Part shown: in pieces, positions 1,964 to 10,902 of the stretch
How positions within the stretch are numbered: the stretch's first letter is position 1
Layout: the number at the start of each line of letters is the position of its first letter
Assembly (NCBI GenBank): GCA_900321205.1
Contig: ONVC01000005.1
Span: 1 to 36,786 of the forward strand
Direction of reading: 5' to 3'
From: an uncultured Acinetobacter sp.
GTDB taxonomy: Bacteria; Cyanobacteriota; Vampirovibrionia; Gastranaerophilales; Gastranaerophilaceae
Length of the DNA: 36,786 bases
Made by a program: the position numbers and the translations under genes
Notes under the pieces: model-generated
The model's database searches: none
The model's input: only the letters and a program-made list of their open reading frames with translations
Told to the model about the DNA's origin: nothing

Positions 1964-1989
1964 GGGTAACTAACTGGGGGTAAACACTT

Positions 1990-2769
1990 TTGGACAGATA
2001 CAGATTGATAGTTTCAATTATTTGTTTATTTGTATATTTGCTCGTGATATATCCTTGGCAGACTATTGTTGTCAGTGTATTTTTAGGAATTGCTTATTTT
2101 ACAATAATTAATTTAAAATCCTCAAATCAGGCATCGAACAGTATGTCTTCACGCAGACTGGCTGCATTAAGAGACGCTAAAATTTATCTCTCCCCGTATA
2201 GTGATATATGGCGGAATTTAAGATTATCAAATAAATATTGTGAGCTCAGACTTGGTGCAGACGGACAAACTATAAGGGCAAAAGACTTTACCTCAAATCG
2301 TTCTTTTAAAATTATAAGTTCAAAAGTTCATAACAAAAATGATTTGTGGGATATGTTTTGCATAACGTTTAGTCATAACACTTCTTTTGATGAACTTATT
2401 TCCTTGTGTGGAAGATTTGAAGCCGAGATTGATTTAAGAGATGAAAAAAATCATTATGAAAAGCGTTTAAACAAAGTTGAACCTGCGGTGATAAAAGTTG
2501 ATTCTATTGAACCGCAAAAACCAAAGCTTGATGTAAATAATGCATCCGAAGTAGAGCTTACGGCTCTTCCGGGTATAAGTATAGTTATGGCAAAAAAACT
2601 CATAAAAAAAAGAGAAGAGCTGGGTGGTTTTAAATCAGTAAATGATGTTTTTTTGTTTTTGCACATAAAACCGCATATACAGTCACAACTTGAAAACTTA
2701 ATTTGTGTTAATAAGATGAAAAGCAGCGGAAAAATCAAACGATACAATGAGCGGAGTATTGATTTGTAG
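1990..2769 (+). CDS. Membrane-anchored protein with novel Cys-Leu domain and C-terminal ComEA-type helix-hairpin-helix
   Basis: 259 residues starting at a TTG with GGGGGT upstream. Two hydrophobic stretches (about 5-21 and 24-42) anchor it in the membrane. Residues 81-143 form a domain starting NKYCELRL that also occurs twice in the next gene. Residues 180-241 are a helix-hairpin-helix pair typical of ComEA and non-specific DNA-binding proteins (LDVNNASEVELTALPGI, then AKKLIKKREELGGF). The last residues, IKRYNERSIDL, are nearly identical to the end of the next protein. The HhH suggests DNA contact, but the lack of a ComEA-like secreted layout and the cassette context argue against simple naming as competence protein ComEA. 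Its stop codon overlaps the next start (TAGTG), so the two are translationally coupled. Overall function unknown. Confidence 0.85.
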   Translation: MDRYRLIVSIICLFVYLLVIYPWQTIVVSVFLGIAYFTIINLKSSNQASNSMSSRRLAALRDAKIYLSPYSDIWRNLRLSNKYCELRLGADGQTIRAKDFTSNRSFKIISSKVHNKNDLWDMFCITFSHNTSFDELISLCGRFEAEIDLRDEKNHYEKRLNKVEPAVIKVDSIEPQKPKLDVNNASEVELTALPGISIVMAKKLIKKREELGGFKSVNDVFLFLHIKPHIQSQLENLICVNKMKSSGKIKRYNERSIDL

Positions 2770-3686
2770 TGGAATTTATAATTTATCTGATTATAGGAAT
2801 AATATATGCAATAGCTTCTGCTAACGGATATAACGGCAGATACTCAAGAAATAATTTCCGATTGAGGAATATGGAATACGGAAGGTACGGATTAATCGGT
2901 GTAGACGAGAACTTTTCGCTTTCGCTGGATGATCGTCTGAACATGATTCGTGAAGAGTATGATAAAAGGCTCAGGCAGTATTATGCTGATCACTCACCAA
3001 GGTTTTATCTAAAAAATAATCATTGTGTATTGCGTCTGATAAAGAACGAAAATGGTACAAGTTTTTATTGCAAAGAAAAAACAAACGGAACTAAGAAGGG
3101 AAAGTACTTTGAAGTACGCGGAAATAACGAACATGCAAGTACAATGTGGGCAATTATTGATATGGAGTTTTCAAAAAGAAGTGACTATCAATCAGTAAAA
3201 GCTTTGTATTATCGCTTAAACCAAACAACAAATACAACAGGTGGTTTGATGTATTTTAAAGAACCGTTTTTCAGTAAATACCCTGATTATGATGAAAAAT
3301 ACGCCCAGAATGAATTCTGTTCATTAGAATATTCGGATAGAGAAAACAGTATTATTTGTTCGGAACTCTGGTCGCATCATCCAAAACAATTTATTATAAA
3401 AGGTAATAAGTATTTGTTGATTAATCTTATTACAGAGTTCAAGCGTGAAAAAGATAAATTTTTGTCTTTTTCGCAGTTGTTAGCAAAATATTCAATACGG
3501 GGTGATGTTACAGTAAATATGATATCAGAACAAAAGACTGAAAAACCAAAAGCTGAGACAAAACAAACCCCAAACGTTTCTGAAAATAAAATTCAGGTTG
3601 AAACAAATGATAAAAAAATAAATAATGAAGGATTTGAAAATTTTAAAGATATAAAAAAATATAATGAAAGAAATCTGGATTTATAA
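2769..3686 (+). CDS. Membrane-anchored protein with two copies of the novel Cys-Leu domain
   Basis: 305 residues, unknown function. The GTG start overlaps the preceding TAG by one base, with GGAG about 12 nt upstream. It has one N-terminal hydrophobic helix (about 2-18). Two copies of a 60-70 residue domain follow, at about 82-150 (NNHCVLRL at the start, MEFSKRSDYQSVKALYYRL at the end) and 181-241 (NEFCSLEY, ITEFKREKDKFLSFSQLLAKY). A polar linker rich in Lys, Glu, Asn and Thr (about 253-292) leads to the tail IKKYNERNLDL, matching the upstream protein at almost every position. The arrangement of anchor, paired domains, flexible linker and conserved tail suggests the tail is presented to a shared partner. 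That last step is inference. Confidence 0.82.
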   Translation: MEFIIYLIIGIIYAIASANGYNGRYSRNNFRLRNMEYGRYGLIGVDENFSLSLDDRLNMIREEYDKRLRQYYADHSPRFYLKNNHCVLRLIKNENGTSFYCKEKTNGTKKGKYFEVRGNNEHASTMWAIIDMEFSKRSDYQSVKALYYRLNQTTNTTGGLMYFKEPFFSKYPDYDEKYAQNEFCSLEYSDRENSIICSELWSHHPKQFIIKGNKYLLINLITEFKREKDKFLSFSQLLAKYSIRGDVTVNMISEQKTEKPKAETKQTPNVSENKIQVETNDKKINNEGFENFKDIKKYNERNLDL

Positions 3687-3706
3687 TTAGAAAAAAGCGG
3701 AAGAAA

Positions 3707-4303
3707 ATGCAGTTAAGAGTTTTTAATATAATAAAAAATACAAAAGTAGAAGGTCCCGGTAACAGATATTGTATCTGGGTTCAGGGTTGTTCAAGGCATT
3801 GTAAAGGATGTCAGGCTGTTCATACTTGGGCACACGATAAAGGGGAACTTTATGAAACCGAATATATTATTTTGGATATATTAAAAAACCAGGAAAAGAT
3901 TGAAGGCGTAACTTTTTTAGGCGGTGAACCTTTTGAACAGGCGGAAGCTCTCGGTATAATTGCAGAAAGAGTCCGGGCAAAAGGACTAAGTGTTCTTTGT
4001 TTTACGGGGGGAAAATATGAAGATTTAAGAGAAAACTCTGAAAATCAAAAACTTTTAGCTAATACAGATTTGTTAATTGACGGAGAGTTTATTCAGGAGC
4101 TTACTGATTATTCACGCCCATGGTGCGGTTCATCTAATCAAAGATATCATTTTTTGACTGACAGGTATAATGAAGAAATTTTTACGAAATACAAAAACAA
4201 AGTCGAGGTAAATATCTCAAAAAACGGACAAATCTTTATCAACGGAATGGGCGACTTTGATGAGATACTGCGTAAGGTTGATTTAATCGGGCTTAAAAAA
4301 TGA
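3707..4303 (+). CDS. Radical SAM protein, NrdG/activase-like (single 4Fe-4S cluster)
   Basis: 198 residues. The radical-SAM CX3CX2C motif is C28, C32, C35 in GCSRHCKGC, and the SAM-contacting GGEP is at 72-75 (VTFLGGEPFEQ). Size and motifs resemble NrdG-type glycyl-radical-enzyme activases. The NrdG substrate, class III ribonucleotide reductase NrdD, is not adjacent, and the gene sits inside a cassette with an AAA+ ATPase. Activases of this size modify a partner polypeptide, so the neighbouring tail-bearing proteins are candidate substrates; this is inference. The gene starts 20 bp after the upstream stop, with a weak GGAAG ribosome binding site, and the ATPase gene follows after 24 bp. It could instead be an ordinary NrdG recruited here. 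Confidence 0.87.
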   Translation: MQLRVFNIIKNTKVEGPGNRYCIWVQGCSRHCKGCQAVHTWAHDKGELYETEYIILDILKNQEKIEGVTFLGGEPFEQAEALGIIAERVRAKGLSVLCFTGGKYEDLRENSENQKLLANTDLLIDGEFIQELTDYSRPWCGSSNQRYHFLTDRYNEEIFTKYKNKVEVNISKNGQIFINGMGDFDEILRKVDLIGLKK

Positions 4304-4327
4304 TAATATTTTTAAAAGGAGATTTAT

Positions 4328-5941
4328 ATGAGTACTTACAAATTAGCAAACTTAATCAGAGCTCGTTTTCCGATGATATATATCACTACATTTGAAGAAG
4401 ACAGAGTTACAAAATATATTAAATCTGTTGTGACTGATGAAAAACAAGTTAAATACCCCAGAGAAGTTTTTACGTGGACTCAGACAAACGGTTTATTCAA
4501 TGATACAACACAAAAGTCTGTCGCTGATACGGCTTGTCCGTGCAAGGCATTGGAATTTGTCAGAAAATACGACAAAGATGCTGTTTTTATTCTTTACGAT
4601 TTTCATGTAAACTTTGGTCCTAAGGGAAGACAGCCTGATTATAATACAATAAGAAAAGTAAGAGATATTGTCCCTGATTTGAAACTCGGAACGGTAAGAA
4701 AAACACTTTTCTTTGTTTCAACCGAACTTTTAATTCCGGAATCTTTGCAGAAAGAGATTACAATATATGATTTTGCTCTTCCCACTCTCGATGAGATAAA
4801 GGCAAAGTTTAACAGCATGATTAATCAGAACTCATCTGTTGTAAACGAACTTTCGGAGGAAGATAAAGATAAACTGTGCAAGGCTGCACTCGGATTAACT
4901 CTTCAGGAAGCTGAAAGTGCTTTTGCGCTTGCAATGGTAAATGACGGAAAAATTAGCATAAAAGATTTGCAAGTAGTTTTAGAAGAAAAGGTTCAAGTTA
5001 TTAAGAAAACAGGGATTTTGGAATTTATCCGTTCTGATTATACGATGAAGGATATAGGCGGATTAGACAATCTTAAAAATTGGCTTTTAAAAAGAAATAA
5101 TTCATGGTCTGAACAGGCAAAGAAATATTGTATTCCTGCGCCAAAAGGTGTTCTTGTAACCGGAGTTCCCGGTTGCGGAAAGAGTTTGACTGCAAAAGCA
5201 ATGAGTACTATCTGGGGATTACCGCTTTTAAAACTAGATTTTGGAAAAGTATTTTCAGGACTTGTAGGAAGTTCTGAGGAAAATATGAGAAGAGCTCTCC
5301 GGACTGCAGAAGCAGTTGCACCTTCAATTCTCTGGATTGATGAGATTGAAAAAGGTTTGAGCGGACTCGGTTCAAACGGTGACAGCGGCGTTTCCTCGCG
5401 AATTTTTGGTCAATTCTTAACATGGATGCAGGAAAAAGAAGCGCCTGTTTTTGTTATTGCAACTGCAAACAATATAAGCGGACTGCCTCCGGAACTTCTC
5501 AGAAAAGGTCGTTTTGACGAAATCTTTTTTGTAGATTTACCAACGGAAGAAGAAAGAAAAGAAATTTTTAAACTTCACCTTGAAAGAAGATTAAAAGATA
5601 AAGAAGTTGCAAGTGAAATAATCAAAGTTAAGAACTTGTGCGGAGAACTGGCAAAAATGACGGAAGGATTTATCGGTTCAGAAATCGAACAGGTTGTTGT
5701 TTCTGCTCTCTGTGATGCATTCTTTGAAAACAGACCGCTCAGGTTTGAAGATTTGGCAAAAAATATTCAGACTACTGTACCGCTTTCTATGACTCAGAGA
5801 GAACAGGTGCTTGCTCTTCGACAGTGGGCAAATGTTAGAGCTGTGTCTGCAACGAAAACATCAAAGATGAAAAATTATTCAAAAGAAATTGATGAAGGAA
5901 ATGCTGCAACAAGCAGAGGCGGAAGAACATTAGATTTCTAG
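4328..5941 (+). CDS. Ycf46-like AAA+ ATPase
   Basis: 537 residues. The C-terminal AAA+ module has Walker A GVPGCGKS (279-286), Walker B ILWIDE (334-339), a sensor-1 asparagine in ATANN (378-382) and arginine-finger region LLRKGRFDE (390-398), then a helical lid to about 470. The N-terminal ~230 residues resemble the degenerate AAA-like half of Ycf46-type proteins and lack a P-loop. The protein ends GGRTLDF, related to the RSIDL and RNLDL ends of two upstream proteins. Ycf46 proteins of cyanobacteria and plastids are poorly understood; the Synechocystis homologue has been linked to inorganic carbon uptake, which cannot apply unchanged here. AAAGGAG lies upstream of the ATG. Role here is probably ATP-driven remodelling within the cassette (inference). 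Confidence 0.9.
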   Translation: MSTYKLANLIRARFPMIYITTFEEDRVTKYIKSVVTDEKQVKYPREVFTWTQTNGLFNDTTQKSVADTACPCKALEFVRKYDKDAVFILYDFHVNFGPKGRQPDYNTIRKVRDIVPDLKLGTVRKTLFFVSTELLIPESLQKEITIYDFALPTLDEIKAKFNSMINQNSSVVNELSEEDKDKLCKAALGLTLQEAESAFALAMVNDGKISIKDLQVVLEEKVQVIKKTGILEFIRSDYTMKDIGGLDNLKNWLLKRNNSWSEQAKKYCIPAPKGVLVTGVPGCGKSLTAKAMSTIWGLPLLKLDFGKVFSGLVGSSEENMRRALRTAEAVAPSILWIDEIEKGLSGLGSNGDSGVSSRIFGQFLTWMQEKEAPVFVIATANNISGLPPELLRKGRFDEIFFVDLPTEEERKEIFKLHLERRLKDKEVASEIIKVKNLCGELAKMTEGFIGSEIEQVVVSALCDAFFENRPLRFEDLAKNIQTTVPLSMTQREQVLALRQWANVRAVSATKTSKMKNYSKEIDEGNAATSRGGRTLDF

Positions 5942-6001
5942 GGGTAAATATAAATATTTCTCAGTGAAACAACAAAATACAGGAAAGGATAAAGAAATAG
6001 T

Positions 6002-6541
6002 ATGTCTTGTACAGTAATAGCGGTACCCTATGCTCTTATGTGGGTGGTTGGTGCAATAGCAACAGCAGCAGCTACGGCAGCAACAAATAATCAGCAGGAA
6101 AATCAAAGTTTACAGGAATTTACATCGATATACAATGAAGCTGAAAATTGTAGTGAAGACCATGTAATTACAGAAAAACATTTTATTGAAAAAACATTTG
6201 AAACACCGTTTATGGACAGAGATATTTTGATGAAAACGCTGGAAGAACACGGTGTTAAAAATATTTCCGAATGGGAAAACGGTATAGCCGGTGATGTTGA
6301 AAATTATAAACTTACGTTTGAAAAACCGGCAGTTGATAAGCCTTATAACCTCAGAATATCATGTCTGGAAAATGCAAATGCGGAAGAAAAAGTCGGTGAT
6401 TTAAGCGGTGAGTACGCTATGAATGTTCAGGAGGATGCATATCTTCATATTATAGATAAGTTAAAAGATAATAATATGCAAATTGAACAAGAAGAGGTTA
6501 TGGAAGACAATACCATAGTATTAACTGTAAACATTGATTAA
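6002..6541 (+). CDS. DUF1257 (Ycf35-family) protein with N-terminal hydrophobic segment
   Basis: 179 residues. The C-terminal half (about 60-179) matches DUF1257/Ycf35 in pattern: a conflict of a TPFMDRDILMKTLEEHG helix, then a QEDAYLHIIDKLKDNN helix, and a final acidic strand ending EDNTIVLTV. The first ~30 residues form an Ala-rich hydrophobic helix that may be a membrane anchor. The molecular function of DUF1257 is unknown, though family members occur beside Ycf46-like ATPases and DUF2997 genes. It lies 60 bp after the ATPase and 12 bp before the DUF2997 gene, so it should be in the same operon. The family call rests on pattern recognition of a divergent protein and is moderately sure. Confidence 0.75.
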   Translation: MSCTVIAVPYALMWVVGAIATAAATAATNNQQENQSLQEFTSIYNEAENCSEDHVITEKHFIEKTFETPFMDRDILMKTLEEHGVKNISEWENGIAGDVENYKLTFEKPAVDKPYNLRISCLENANAEEKVGDLSGEYAMNVQEDAYLHIIDKLKDNNMQIEQEEVMEDNTIVLTVNID

Positions 6542-6553
6542 AAGGAATAAAAT

Positions 6554-6760
6554 ATGTCTGATAAGAAACTTAAAATAAAACTGTTGCCTAATGGTGAGAT
6601 TCAGATGGAGACTGTAGGTGTAAAAGGGAAAAAATGTCTTGATTATATAGATGTTTTAAAAAAACTTGTTGATGTAAAAATAACTGATACTCAGTTGTCT
6701 CAAGAATATTATGAAACAGAAGTTCTTGATAATGAGAATAATGAATTAAAGTTTGATTAA
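6554..6760 (+). CDS. DUF2997 small protein
   Basis: 68 residues with the compact DUF2997 layout: a beta hairpin (LKIKLLPNGEIQMETVGVKGKKC), a short helix starting at CLDYIDVLKKL, and a C-terminal EYYE segment. The GVKGKxC turn is the most telling family feature. DUF2997 has no established function and is typically encoded next to DUF1257. AAGGA precedes the ATG. It is the last gene of the cassette; the ATP synthase promoter follows at once. The cofactor or ligand, if any, is not evident, but C28 is in the position conserved in the family. Confidence 0.85.
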   Translation: MSDKKLKIKLLPNGEIQMETVGVKGKKCLDYIDVLKKLVDVKITDTQLSQEYYETEVLDNENNELKFD

Positions 6761-6765
6761 TAATC

Positions 6766-6794
6766 TTGCACAGAGTTGAAAAATATGATATTAT
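6766..6794 (+). promoter_or_regulatory. Promoter of the ATP synthase operon
   Basis: TTGCAC (6766-6771), a 17-bp spacer and TATTAT (6789-6794), ending 23 bp before the atpB start. An AGAGAGG ribosome binding site follows. Confidence 0.7.
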
Positions 6795-6817
6795 TGATTT
6801 AAGAAGAGAGGTTATTA

Positions 6818-7516
6818 ATGAGCGAAGGACACTGGATAGTAAATACAGTGATTGCAGGGCATCCTATGGCGTTTAATATGGATACACTTGTAACCATGTG
6901 GGCTGCAATGGCTTTTTTGTTAATAGTTGCTTTTATAGCAACAAGAAAATTGACAATTGTTCCTACAAAACTGCAGCTTGTTTTTGAAAGCATTCTGAGT
7001 GCTTTTTGGGGACTTGTTGACAGTCTTATGCCAAAAGAAGGAAGAAAACATATTCCCCTTATTGCATCACTGTTCTTGTTTATTATAACTGCAAACCTTA
7101 TGGGGCAGCTTCCGCTCAGAATGATTGAACTTCAGCATGGAGAAATGGCTTCTCCTACAAATGATATAAACTTAACAGCCGCAATGGCTATTATAGTTTT
7201 GGTATATTATGTTGGTGCAGGATTTAAGAAAAAGGGTTTTCGTTATTTTCTGCATGATTTTAAACCGATGTCAATATTTATGGCAGCCTTAGAAGTTTTA
7301 GATATGATAACAAGACCTTTAACGCTGGCTTTACGTTTGTTTGGTAATATATTGGCAGGAGAATGTCTTATGACTGCGCTATTGGGTATCTGCGCATATT
7401 TCTTGCCTTTACCTGTAATGTTTTTTGAAGTATTGGTTGCCTGCGTTCAGGCTTTGGTCTTTGCGTTGTTAACCACGGTATATATATCTTCTGCCGTAGA
7501 AGAGGGTGAACATTAA
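6818..7516 (+). CDS. atpB: ATP synthase F0 subunit a
   Basis: 232-residue integral membrane subunit a, which forms the two proton half-channels beside the c-ring. Predicted helices fall at about 24-42, 80-98, 118-136, 150-170, 172-198 and 200-224. The essential stator arginine is R173 in the family motif LTLALRLFGNILAG. The start has AGAGAGG upstream. It leads the operon, as in Cyanobacteria (where it is called atpI); no separate uncI-type gene precedes it. Confidence 0.96.
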   Translation: MSEGHWIVNTVIAGHPMAFNMDTLVTMWAAMAFLLIVAFIATRKLTIVPTKLQLVFESILSAFWGLVDSLMPKEGRKHIPLIASLFLFIITANLMGQLPLRMIELQHGEMASPTNDINLTAAMAIIVLVYYVGAGFKKKGFRYFLHDFKPMSIFMAALEVLDMITRPLTLALRLFGNILAGECLMTALLGICAYFLPLPVMFFEVLVACVQALVFALLTTVYISSAVEEGEH

Positions 7517-8835: not shown

Positions 8836-9378
8836 ATGGCGGAACTCGTGTCAAAAAAGTGGGCTAAGGCTCTTATAGAACTTACATCAGAGGATGAAAG
8901 CATATCGAAAGAAGATGTTTTGTCTGATTTAAAAGGTATTGCCGAAACAATTGAATCTTCGGAAGAATTAACAAATGTCATTAATAATCCTTCTATATCA
9001 ACAGAAGAGAAACAAATTGTTATCTGTAAACTTTTTCAGGACAAAGTAAAACCTATTGTTTATAACTTTCTGTTTGTTCTTAACCTGAAAAAACGTATGA
9101 ATATAATTGGTGAAATAGTTGCAGAGTTCGAAAAAGAATTGGAACTGCTTAAAAATATTGTGAGAGTTGATATAACTTCTGCAATAGATTTAAGTGATGA
9201 AAAGAAATCCAGTATCAGACAGCGTGTTGCAGAAAAACTTCAGAAAGATGTAAAAGTTTCATGGGATGTTGATTCTGATATAATAGCAGGGCTGATATTT
9301 AATATAGATGATACTGTTGTAGATAACAGTATCAGACATAAGTTAGACACATTAAGTAATATTATAATAAGAGGATAG
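8836..9378 (+). CDS. atpH: ATP synthase F1 subunit delta
   Basis: 180-residue delta subunit (OSCP homologue) linking the peripheral stalk to the top of the alpha3beta3 head. It has the helical N-terminal domain (about 1-105, with VSKKWAKALIEL at the start) and the C-terminal strand region (VRVDITSAIDL near 112-122, then the conserved DSDIIAGLIFNIDDTVVDNSIRHKL segment in pieces near 146-170). AAGGTGGA precedes the ATG at 8836. The alpha gene starts 12 bp downstream. Confidence 0.94.
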   Translation: MAELVSKKWAKALIELTSEDESISKEDVLSDLKGIAETIESSEELTNVINNPSISTEEKQIVICKLFQDKVKPIVYNFLFVLNLKKRMNIIGEIVAEFEKELELLKNIVRVDITSAIDLSDEKKSSIRQRVAEKLQKDVKVSWDVDSDIIAGLIFNIDDTVVDNSIRHKLDTLSNIIIRG

Positions 9379-9390
9379 GAAAGGACATAT

Positions 9391-10902
9391 ATGGCAGTAA
9401 TTAATCCTGATGAAATTAGTTCAATCCTGAAAGAGAACATTAAAAATTATGAAGCAAAAGCTGAAGTTTCAAATATTGGAAGTGTTCTTGAAGTAGGTGA
9501 CGGTATTGCAAGAATTTATGGTTTGCGTAACGTTATGTCAAATGAACTTGTTGAATTTGAAGACGGAAAAGGTACATTAGGTATTACATTAAACCTTGAA
9601 GAAGGAAATGTAGGTGTAGTTATTCTTGGTGAATATACACAGATTAAAGAAGGTATGACAGTTAAAACAACAGGCAGAATTGCTTCCGTACCGGTAGGTG
9701 ATGCATTAATCGGAAGAATAGTTAACCCGACAGGTCGTCCTATAGACGGTAAGGGTGATATTATTTCTGACAGAACAAGACCTATTGAAAGAGTTGCACC
9801 CGGTATTGTTGCAAGAAAATCTGTACATCAGCCGCTTCAGACAGGTTTAACTGCTATTGATGCATTAACTCCTATCGGTAGAGGTCAGCGTGAGTTGATT
9901 ATCGGAGACCGTCAGACAGGTAAGACAGCAGTTGCTATTGATACAATTATTAACCAAAAAGGCGGTGACGTAATTTGTATTTATGTTGCAATCGGACAAA
10001 AAGCTTCAACAGTTGCTCAGATTGCCAAAACATTAGAAAAACATGGTGCTATGGATTATTCAATAATCGTTGCATCAACGGCAAACGAACCAGCTCCTCT
10101 TCAATATATAGCACCGTTCGCGGGTGTTGCTATAGCAGAAGAGTTTATGGAACAAGGAAAACATGTTCTTATTGTATATGATGATTTAACAAAGCACGCT
10201 CAGGCATATCGTGCAATGAGTTTGCTTTTGAAAAGACCACCGGGACGTGAAGCTTATCCGGGTGACGTATTCTACTTACACTCAAGATTACTTGAAAGAG
10301 CTGTTAAGTTGAATGATGAACTCGGCGGCGGCAGTATTACTGCATTACCTATTATTGAAACACAGGCAGGAGACGTTTCAGCGTATATTCCTACAAACGT
10401 AATTTCAATTACAGATGGTCAGATATTCCTGGAATCAGCTCTGTTTAACTCAGGTGTAAGACCGGCTATTAACGCAGGTATTTCTGTTTCTCGTGTAGGT
10501 GGTGCGGCTCAGACAAAAGGTATTAAACAGGTTGCAGGTAAACTTCGTTTGGACCTTGCACAATTCAGAGAACTTGAAGCATTTGCTCAGTTTGCATCTG
10601 ATCTTGATGCTGCTACTAAAAAGCAACTGCTTAGAGGGCAGAAACTTACCGAAGTTCTTAAACAACCGCAATATAAACCGCTTTCAGTTGCTCAGCAGGT
10701 TACAATATTGTTTGCTGCAAACGAAGGCTATCTTGATGATATCGAAGATAAAGATATTACATCATATAAAAACGGTTGGTTTGAATACTTTGAAGCAAAT
10801 ATGCCTGAACTCAGCAAGGCTTTAAATGAAGGTGCAAAACTTTCTGATGATAATATTGCAGATTTAAAAGCCAAACTTGAAGAGTACGGAAAGACATTAT
10901 AA
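9391..10902 (+). CDS. atpA: ATP synthase F1 subunit alpha
   Basis: 503 residues, the usual length for the non-catalytic nucleotide-binding subunit. Walker A is GDRQTGKT, preceded by GRGQRELII. The signature [10 protein letters not shown] with its arginine finger is present, as is the C-terminal helical domain ending [11 protein letters not shown]. It alternates with beta in the F1 head, but the beta gene is not in this operon, which matches the split cyanobacterial arrangement (beta-epsilon at a second locus). Confidence 0.98.

Follow-up and report, generated by a model that had tools for sequence, protein, structure and literature searches.

A C-terminal tail shared by a Ycf46-like AAA ATPase and neighbouring proteins in bacteria, plasmids and phages

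Why do three of the six proteins encoded in one compact bacterial gene cassette end in nearly the same residues? The cassette lies in the 36,786-nucleotide stretch of Gastranaerophilaceae DNA under study (the window) and, as an earlier note on this DNA had described, consists of six open reading frames on the forward strand, spaced by a 1-base overlap or by gaps of 12–60 bases. Protein A (1990–2769) carries N-terminal hydrophobic segments, a ~75-residue domain of unknown fold, an HHH_3 domain (Pfam, 3e-12) and the tail NERSIDL, with ERSIDL and the stop codon at 2749–2769. Protein B (2769–3686) has an N-terminal hydrophobic segment and the tail NERNLDL (ERNLDL and stop, 3666–3686); nothing significant was found for it in Pfam, and a search at E<1e-3 across 146 genomes of the order, 145 of them besides the window's, returned only the window's own copy. 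These are followed by a radical SAM protein (3707–4303), a Ycf46-like AAA ATPase (4328–5941) with GRTLDF and the stop codon at 5921–5941, a divergent DUF1257 (Ycf35-like) protein with an N-terminal hydrophobic segment (6002–6541) and a DUF2997 protein (6554–6760). Proteins A and B and the ATPase end in IKRYNERSIDL, IKKYNERNLDL and RGGRTLDF, respectively, all of the form R-x-[IL]-D-[LF]. The shared tail reported in the earlier note is therefore real in the window, and the comparisons below make it stronger than that note could know; the hydrophobic segments of A, B and the DUF1257-like protein likewise bear out its suggestion of a membrane link. Its description of the tail-bearing members as otherwise different holds for the ATPase against A and B but not for A against B, which have a weak ~75-residue domain in common (blastp E 0.005).

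The cassette occupies an island (1964–6817) between lptF (827–1963) and atpB (6818–7516) of the ATP synthase operon, in a 1.83-Mb genome assembled into 134 contigs. Because lptF directly adjoins atpB in two genomes of the same genus that lack the cassette, we regard it as an accessory insertion at this site. PADLOC returned only weak AAA and viperin matches for a defence system, so no such claim is made. The last gene was assigned directly to DUF2997 (PF11211, 1e-9, 38.5 bits against a gathering score of 24.1), and the Cys of its GxxC-type motif is kept in 60/60 family members under 110 residues. A group of small phage proteins that looks DUF2997-like by eye has a similar Cys (VCAYR). The preceding protein, named DUF1257 in the earlier note, had no direct Pfam match (0 families, thus none to PF06868) and is for this reason described only as a divergent relative: a profile of window-type proteins matched a profile including a PF06868 member (hhalign, 95.4%, E 1.6e-8), one row of which passes PF06868 at 6.5e-23. 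Its core is predicted to fold confidently but has no clear relative in the PDB: the top Foldseek match had E 0.0096, and the top VIA match, to the beta2-adaptin appendage, had Z 9.4, only just over the 7–8 that top matches usually reach. No function is therefore claimed from the fold.

The tail is conserved among relatives. An ATPase homologue (E<1e-60) was present in 39 of the 146 genomes from this order, and conservation was read in forty ATPase neighbourhoods from an alignment right-anchored at the C terminus. The ATPase tails have Arg at −5 and Asp or Glu at −2 in 40/40 cases and a preceding RGG in 39/40, while A-type tails have Arg at −5 in 30/34 and Asp at −2 in 31/34. The three A-type exceptions at −2 (L068, L071 and L072) are one residue short (ERTVD, ERIVD), the final hydrophobic residue being missing. 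Since the residues upstream form a variable linker and the Arg and Asp codons of the tail differ among relatives, conservation acts on the protein sequence. A different branch of the order (L074–L080) has the tail on TPR proteins that finish in an HHH-like stretch and, in the same locus, on membrane proteins with an Mrr_cat domain. These Mrr_cat proteins (L074, 1651–2403; L075, 12724–13449; L079, 10046–10789; L080, 9602–10348) adjoin the ATPase, keep the QCK motif and end in GRRLDI, GRKLDI or GRRIDI. In L047, the slot of B between A and the radical SAM gene holds a 232-residue protein without a Pfam family and with the tail EDREVDL (9020–9718), and in L051 an unrelated-looking gene for 367 residues (6001–7104) is inserted between the radical SAM and ATPase genes.

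Ycf46-like ATPases also carry the tail or variants of it in many phyla, on plasmids of Actinobacteria and in phages, the motif having been defined from the window and its relatives and afterwards tried on these more distant loci. Genome and viral contig scans, in which the best 80 matches were kept, ORFs were called simply and many genomes were MAG bins, yielded at least about 150 ATPases, at least 49 of which end exactly in the motif. Among the matches listed, other ATPases end in variants such as GLRQMELG or YQRMEF, and many lineages end bare at RARPAS. Paenarthrobacter and Rhodococcus plasmids carry the same cassette, with five genes and with tails on the ATPase and on the gene in the HHH position (the Actinobacteria plasmid pairs are WRGGRQIDF/ARKLDI, GGRTFEF/GRRLEF and GGRRIDF/GGRTLDL). 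In Anaerolineae the ATPase ends in GLRQMEL and the membrane protein of the next gene in GLIQLEI or GLIKLEL, Bacillus and Paenibacillus plasmids have the tails FDQLDF/DIEFDF and FEDLDL/ADLELF, and cyanobacterial Ycf46 ends in YQRMEF or YQRLEF. No published account of the tail was found in the literature searched.

Genes close to a tailed ATPase end in phi-[DE]-phi more often than genes farther away. At 138 dereplicated loci among the matches listed, such an end was present in 35/172 genes lying at most two positions from a tailed ATPase, compared with 8/171 genes five to seven positions away (p 7e-6); beside tail-less ATPases it was present in 7/173. Of the phage DUF3150-like partners, picked by profile, 16/26 had phi-[DE]-phi close to the C terminus, against 29/495; nothing on DUF3150 was found in the literature searched. 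The similarity of paired partner and ATPase tails exceeded that of random C termini in 500/500 draws, in a test for which some pairs had been chosen after their tails were noticed. Partner tails scored a mean of 10.0 against the tail of their own ATPase and 8.5 against those of other systems, with 16/500 swaps as high; the closer likeness to the tail of their own ATPase is thus only slight.

The ATPase at the centre of these loci matches phrog_8638 over its full length (E 6.6e-141, residues 5–516 of 537), with an AAA core at residues 275–403 (PF00004, 1.6e-28). An AF2 model (pLDDT 86) aligned to p97/Cdc48 over both AAA domains (Foldseek E 2e-23, ~557 columns, TM 0.57), giving two consecutive AAA folds, so that the model predicts a tandem AAA architecture of the p97/Cdc48 kind. 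Nucleotide-binding motifs were not found in both domains: Pfam matched AAA in the C-terminal half and returned no AAA match for the N-terminal half, so the first AAA domain is probably degenerate. The tail was unplaced in the monomer model (mean pLDDT 51 over the last block), so docking is not seen there.

What might the tail do? The reading that we favour, with a little better than even confidence, is that it serves as a docking motif at the C terminus, comparable in principle to HbYX, through which a membrane-tethered p97-like machine would be assembled. The tail would mark the subunits of a single machine around the tandem AAA ATPase, its parts being the membrane-anchored HHH proteins (replaced in other genera by TPR-HHH proteins and Mrr-type membrane nucleases) and the DUF1257/DUF2997 pair with the NrdG-like radical SAM protein. 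Carried on flexible linkers, the tails would fit a single receptor pocket within the complex and would thereby hold the ATPase close to its partners in the membrane; there it may remodel or extract protein. HbYX is a short extreme C-terminal motif by which an AAA ATPase and unrelated partners dock to one receptor, and the present tail is similarly placed at the extreme C terminus of an AAA ATPase and of unrelated partner proteins. Unlike HbYX, described for proteasome activators and Cdc48/p97 (PMC11475706), the tail reads R-x-phi-[DE]-phi; the window's ends (SIDL, NLDL, TLDF) have no Tyr at −2 and hence no hydrophobic-Tyr-X, and no proteasome or peptidase gene was seen within the cassette.

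The reader of the tail could be the ATPase, DUF1257 or DUF2997; two Anaerolineae bins with the tail have neither DUF. For cellular loci, DUF1257 and DUF2997 are attractive candidates: among the matches listed there, the tail goes with a DUF1257/DUF2997 neighbour (29/8/3/27, Fisher p 1.7e-8), an association that is not independent of phylogeny and may be due to common descent, since an underpowered test on the tree gave only three supported independent pairs. In a tailed Phycisphaerae locus (L131), both genes lie elsewhere in the genome. The tail could instead be a client signal read by the ATPase ring, which would engage tail-bearing partners from the C terminus and remodel or pull them, its own tail being autoinhibitory or self-packing. 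This we judge to be unlikely, if worth keeping in view. Among the matches listed, no protein but the ATPase is present at every tailed locus, and bins L118 and L120 of Anaerolineae have tails on the ATPase and on the membrane protein of the next gene with no match to DUF1257 or DUF2997 in the genome searched, but these are MAG bins, perhaps incomplete, and both the cellular association with the DUFs and the failure of the AF2 monomer to place the tail on the ATPase speak against it.

We give considerably less credence to a C-terminal degron or PDZ-type ligand, by which a general protease or chaperone would set the levels of the cassette proteins jointly. Class II PDZ ligands do resemble phi-D-phi-COOH, but the tail is confined to ATPase loci and is met again next to this ATPase family in phages and in distant phyla. 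Ends of the form R.[ILMVF][DE][FLIMVWY] were present in 12/2637 other ORFs of the ATPase loci, and 9 of these 12 are cassette partners. In the 39 genomes with the ATPase, a DNA pattern coding for [DEG]-R-x-phi-D-phi-stop matched 129 times (3.3 each); in the 107 genomes of the order without it, there were 119 matches (1.1 each). In the window's genome the pattern matched five times; three matches are the cassette tails and the other two do not end genes, so within the limits of a DNA pattern nothing points to a wider set of tail-bearing proteins across that proteome.

The earlier note had proposed that the tail is a recognition or modification site for the radical SAM enzyme or the ATPase. Recognition fits a motif tied to the ATPase and its cassette rather than to genomes without the ATPase, but modification by the radical SAM enzyme is not supported, and we consider it very improbable that the tail is that enzyme's substrate. 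The radical SAM gene does adjoin the ATPase in nearly all Gastranaerophilales loci, most of the 39 ATPase genomes having a close homologue, and on Actinobacteria plasmids. Against this, 52/101 tailed ATPase loci among the matches listed, phage and Anaerolineae loci included, have no radical SAM neighbour by a motif test, and Arg and Asp/Glu are the only near-invariant residues common to the A and ATPase tails, Gly(−6) being E in many A tails. Cyanobacterial Ycf46 is tailed as well, and in the Synechocystis duf2997-ycf35-fed7 cluster the DUF2997 and Ycf35 genes adjoin a ferredoxin gene (PMC4284462). The cassette has the ATPase family, DUF1257 and DUF2997 in common with cyanobacteria and differs in having a radical SAM protein where they have ferredoxin; no tail-bearing HHH, TPR or Mrr partners were seen adjoining the cyanobacterial ATPases examined. 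The radical SAM protein itself (Fer4_12) has the CX3CX2C and GGEP motifs, and its closest named family is NrdG, the anaerobic ribonucleotide reductase activase. Because its score lies below the curated cut-off (TIGR02491, E 3e-33, 115 against 126.1 bits) and NrdD, absent near the cassette as previously noted, lies on another contig of a genome that also encodes a separate 163-residue NrdG-like protein, it is unlikely to be the ribonucleotide reductase activase. It may act on another component of the cassette, the conserved Cys of DUF2997 being one candidate. At a further locus (G000:C55, L287 1544–4133), a pyruvate formate-lyase-like gene is seemingly split into a 698-residue core ORF and a separate 142-residue ORF with the glycyl radical motif RVSGYAV, either genuinely or through an assembly error.

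Chance or recent duplication is already refuted as a general explanation: the weak domain common to A and B means that their tail match alone could be old paralogy, but this cannot account for the tails of the ATPase, TPR-HHH and Mrr proteins, the probability of finding three such ends among six genes by chance is ~2e-6 (2637-ORF background), the tail codons differ among A, B and the ATPase, and unrelated families and phyla carry the tail.

Together with the docking reading, we entertain, at somewhat under even confidence, a bacteria-wide, phage-shared family of p97-like ATPases with a private C-terminal address peptide that marks their own partners. If this is true, the partners of the machine could be found in any genome from the last residues of neighbouring genes, and a conserved docking tail would allow direct and cheap tests of machine membership and targets. 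The tail would also offer a handle on Ycf46, Ycf35/DUF1257 and DUF2997, which are widespread in bacteria and plastid genomes and, to our knowledge, have no firm function. It further suggests a p97-like module for membrane remodelling, mobile on plasmids and phages.
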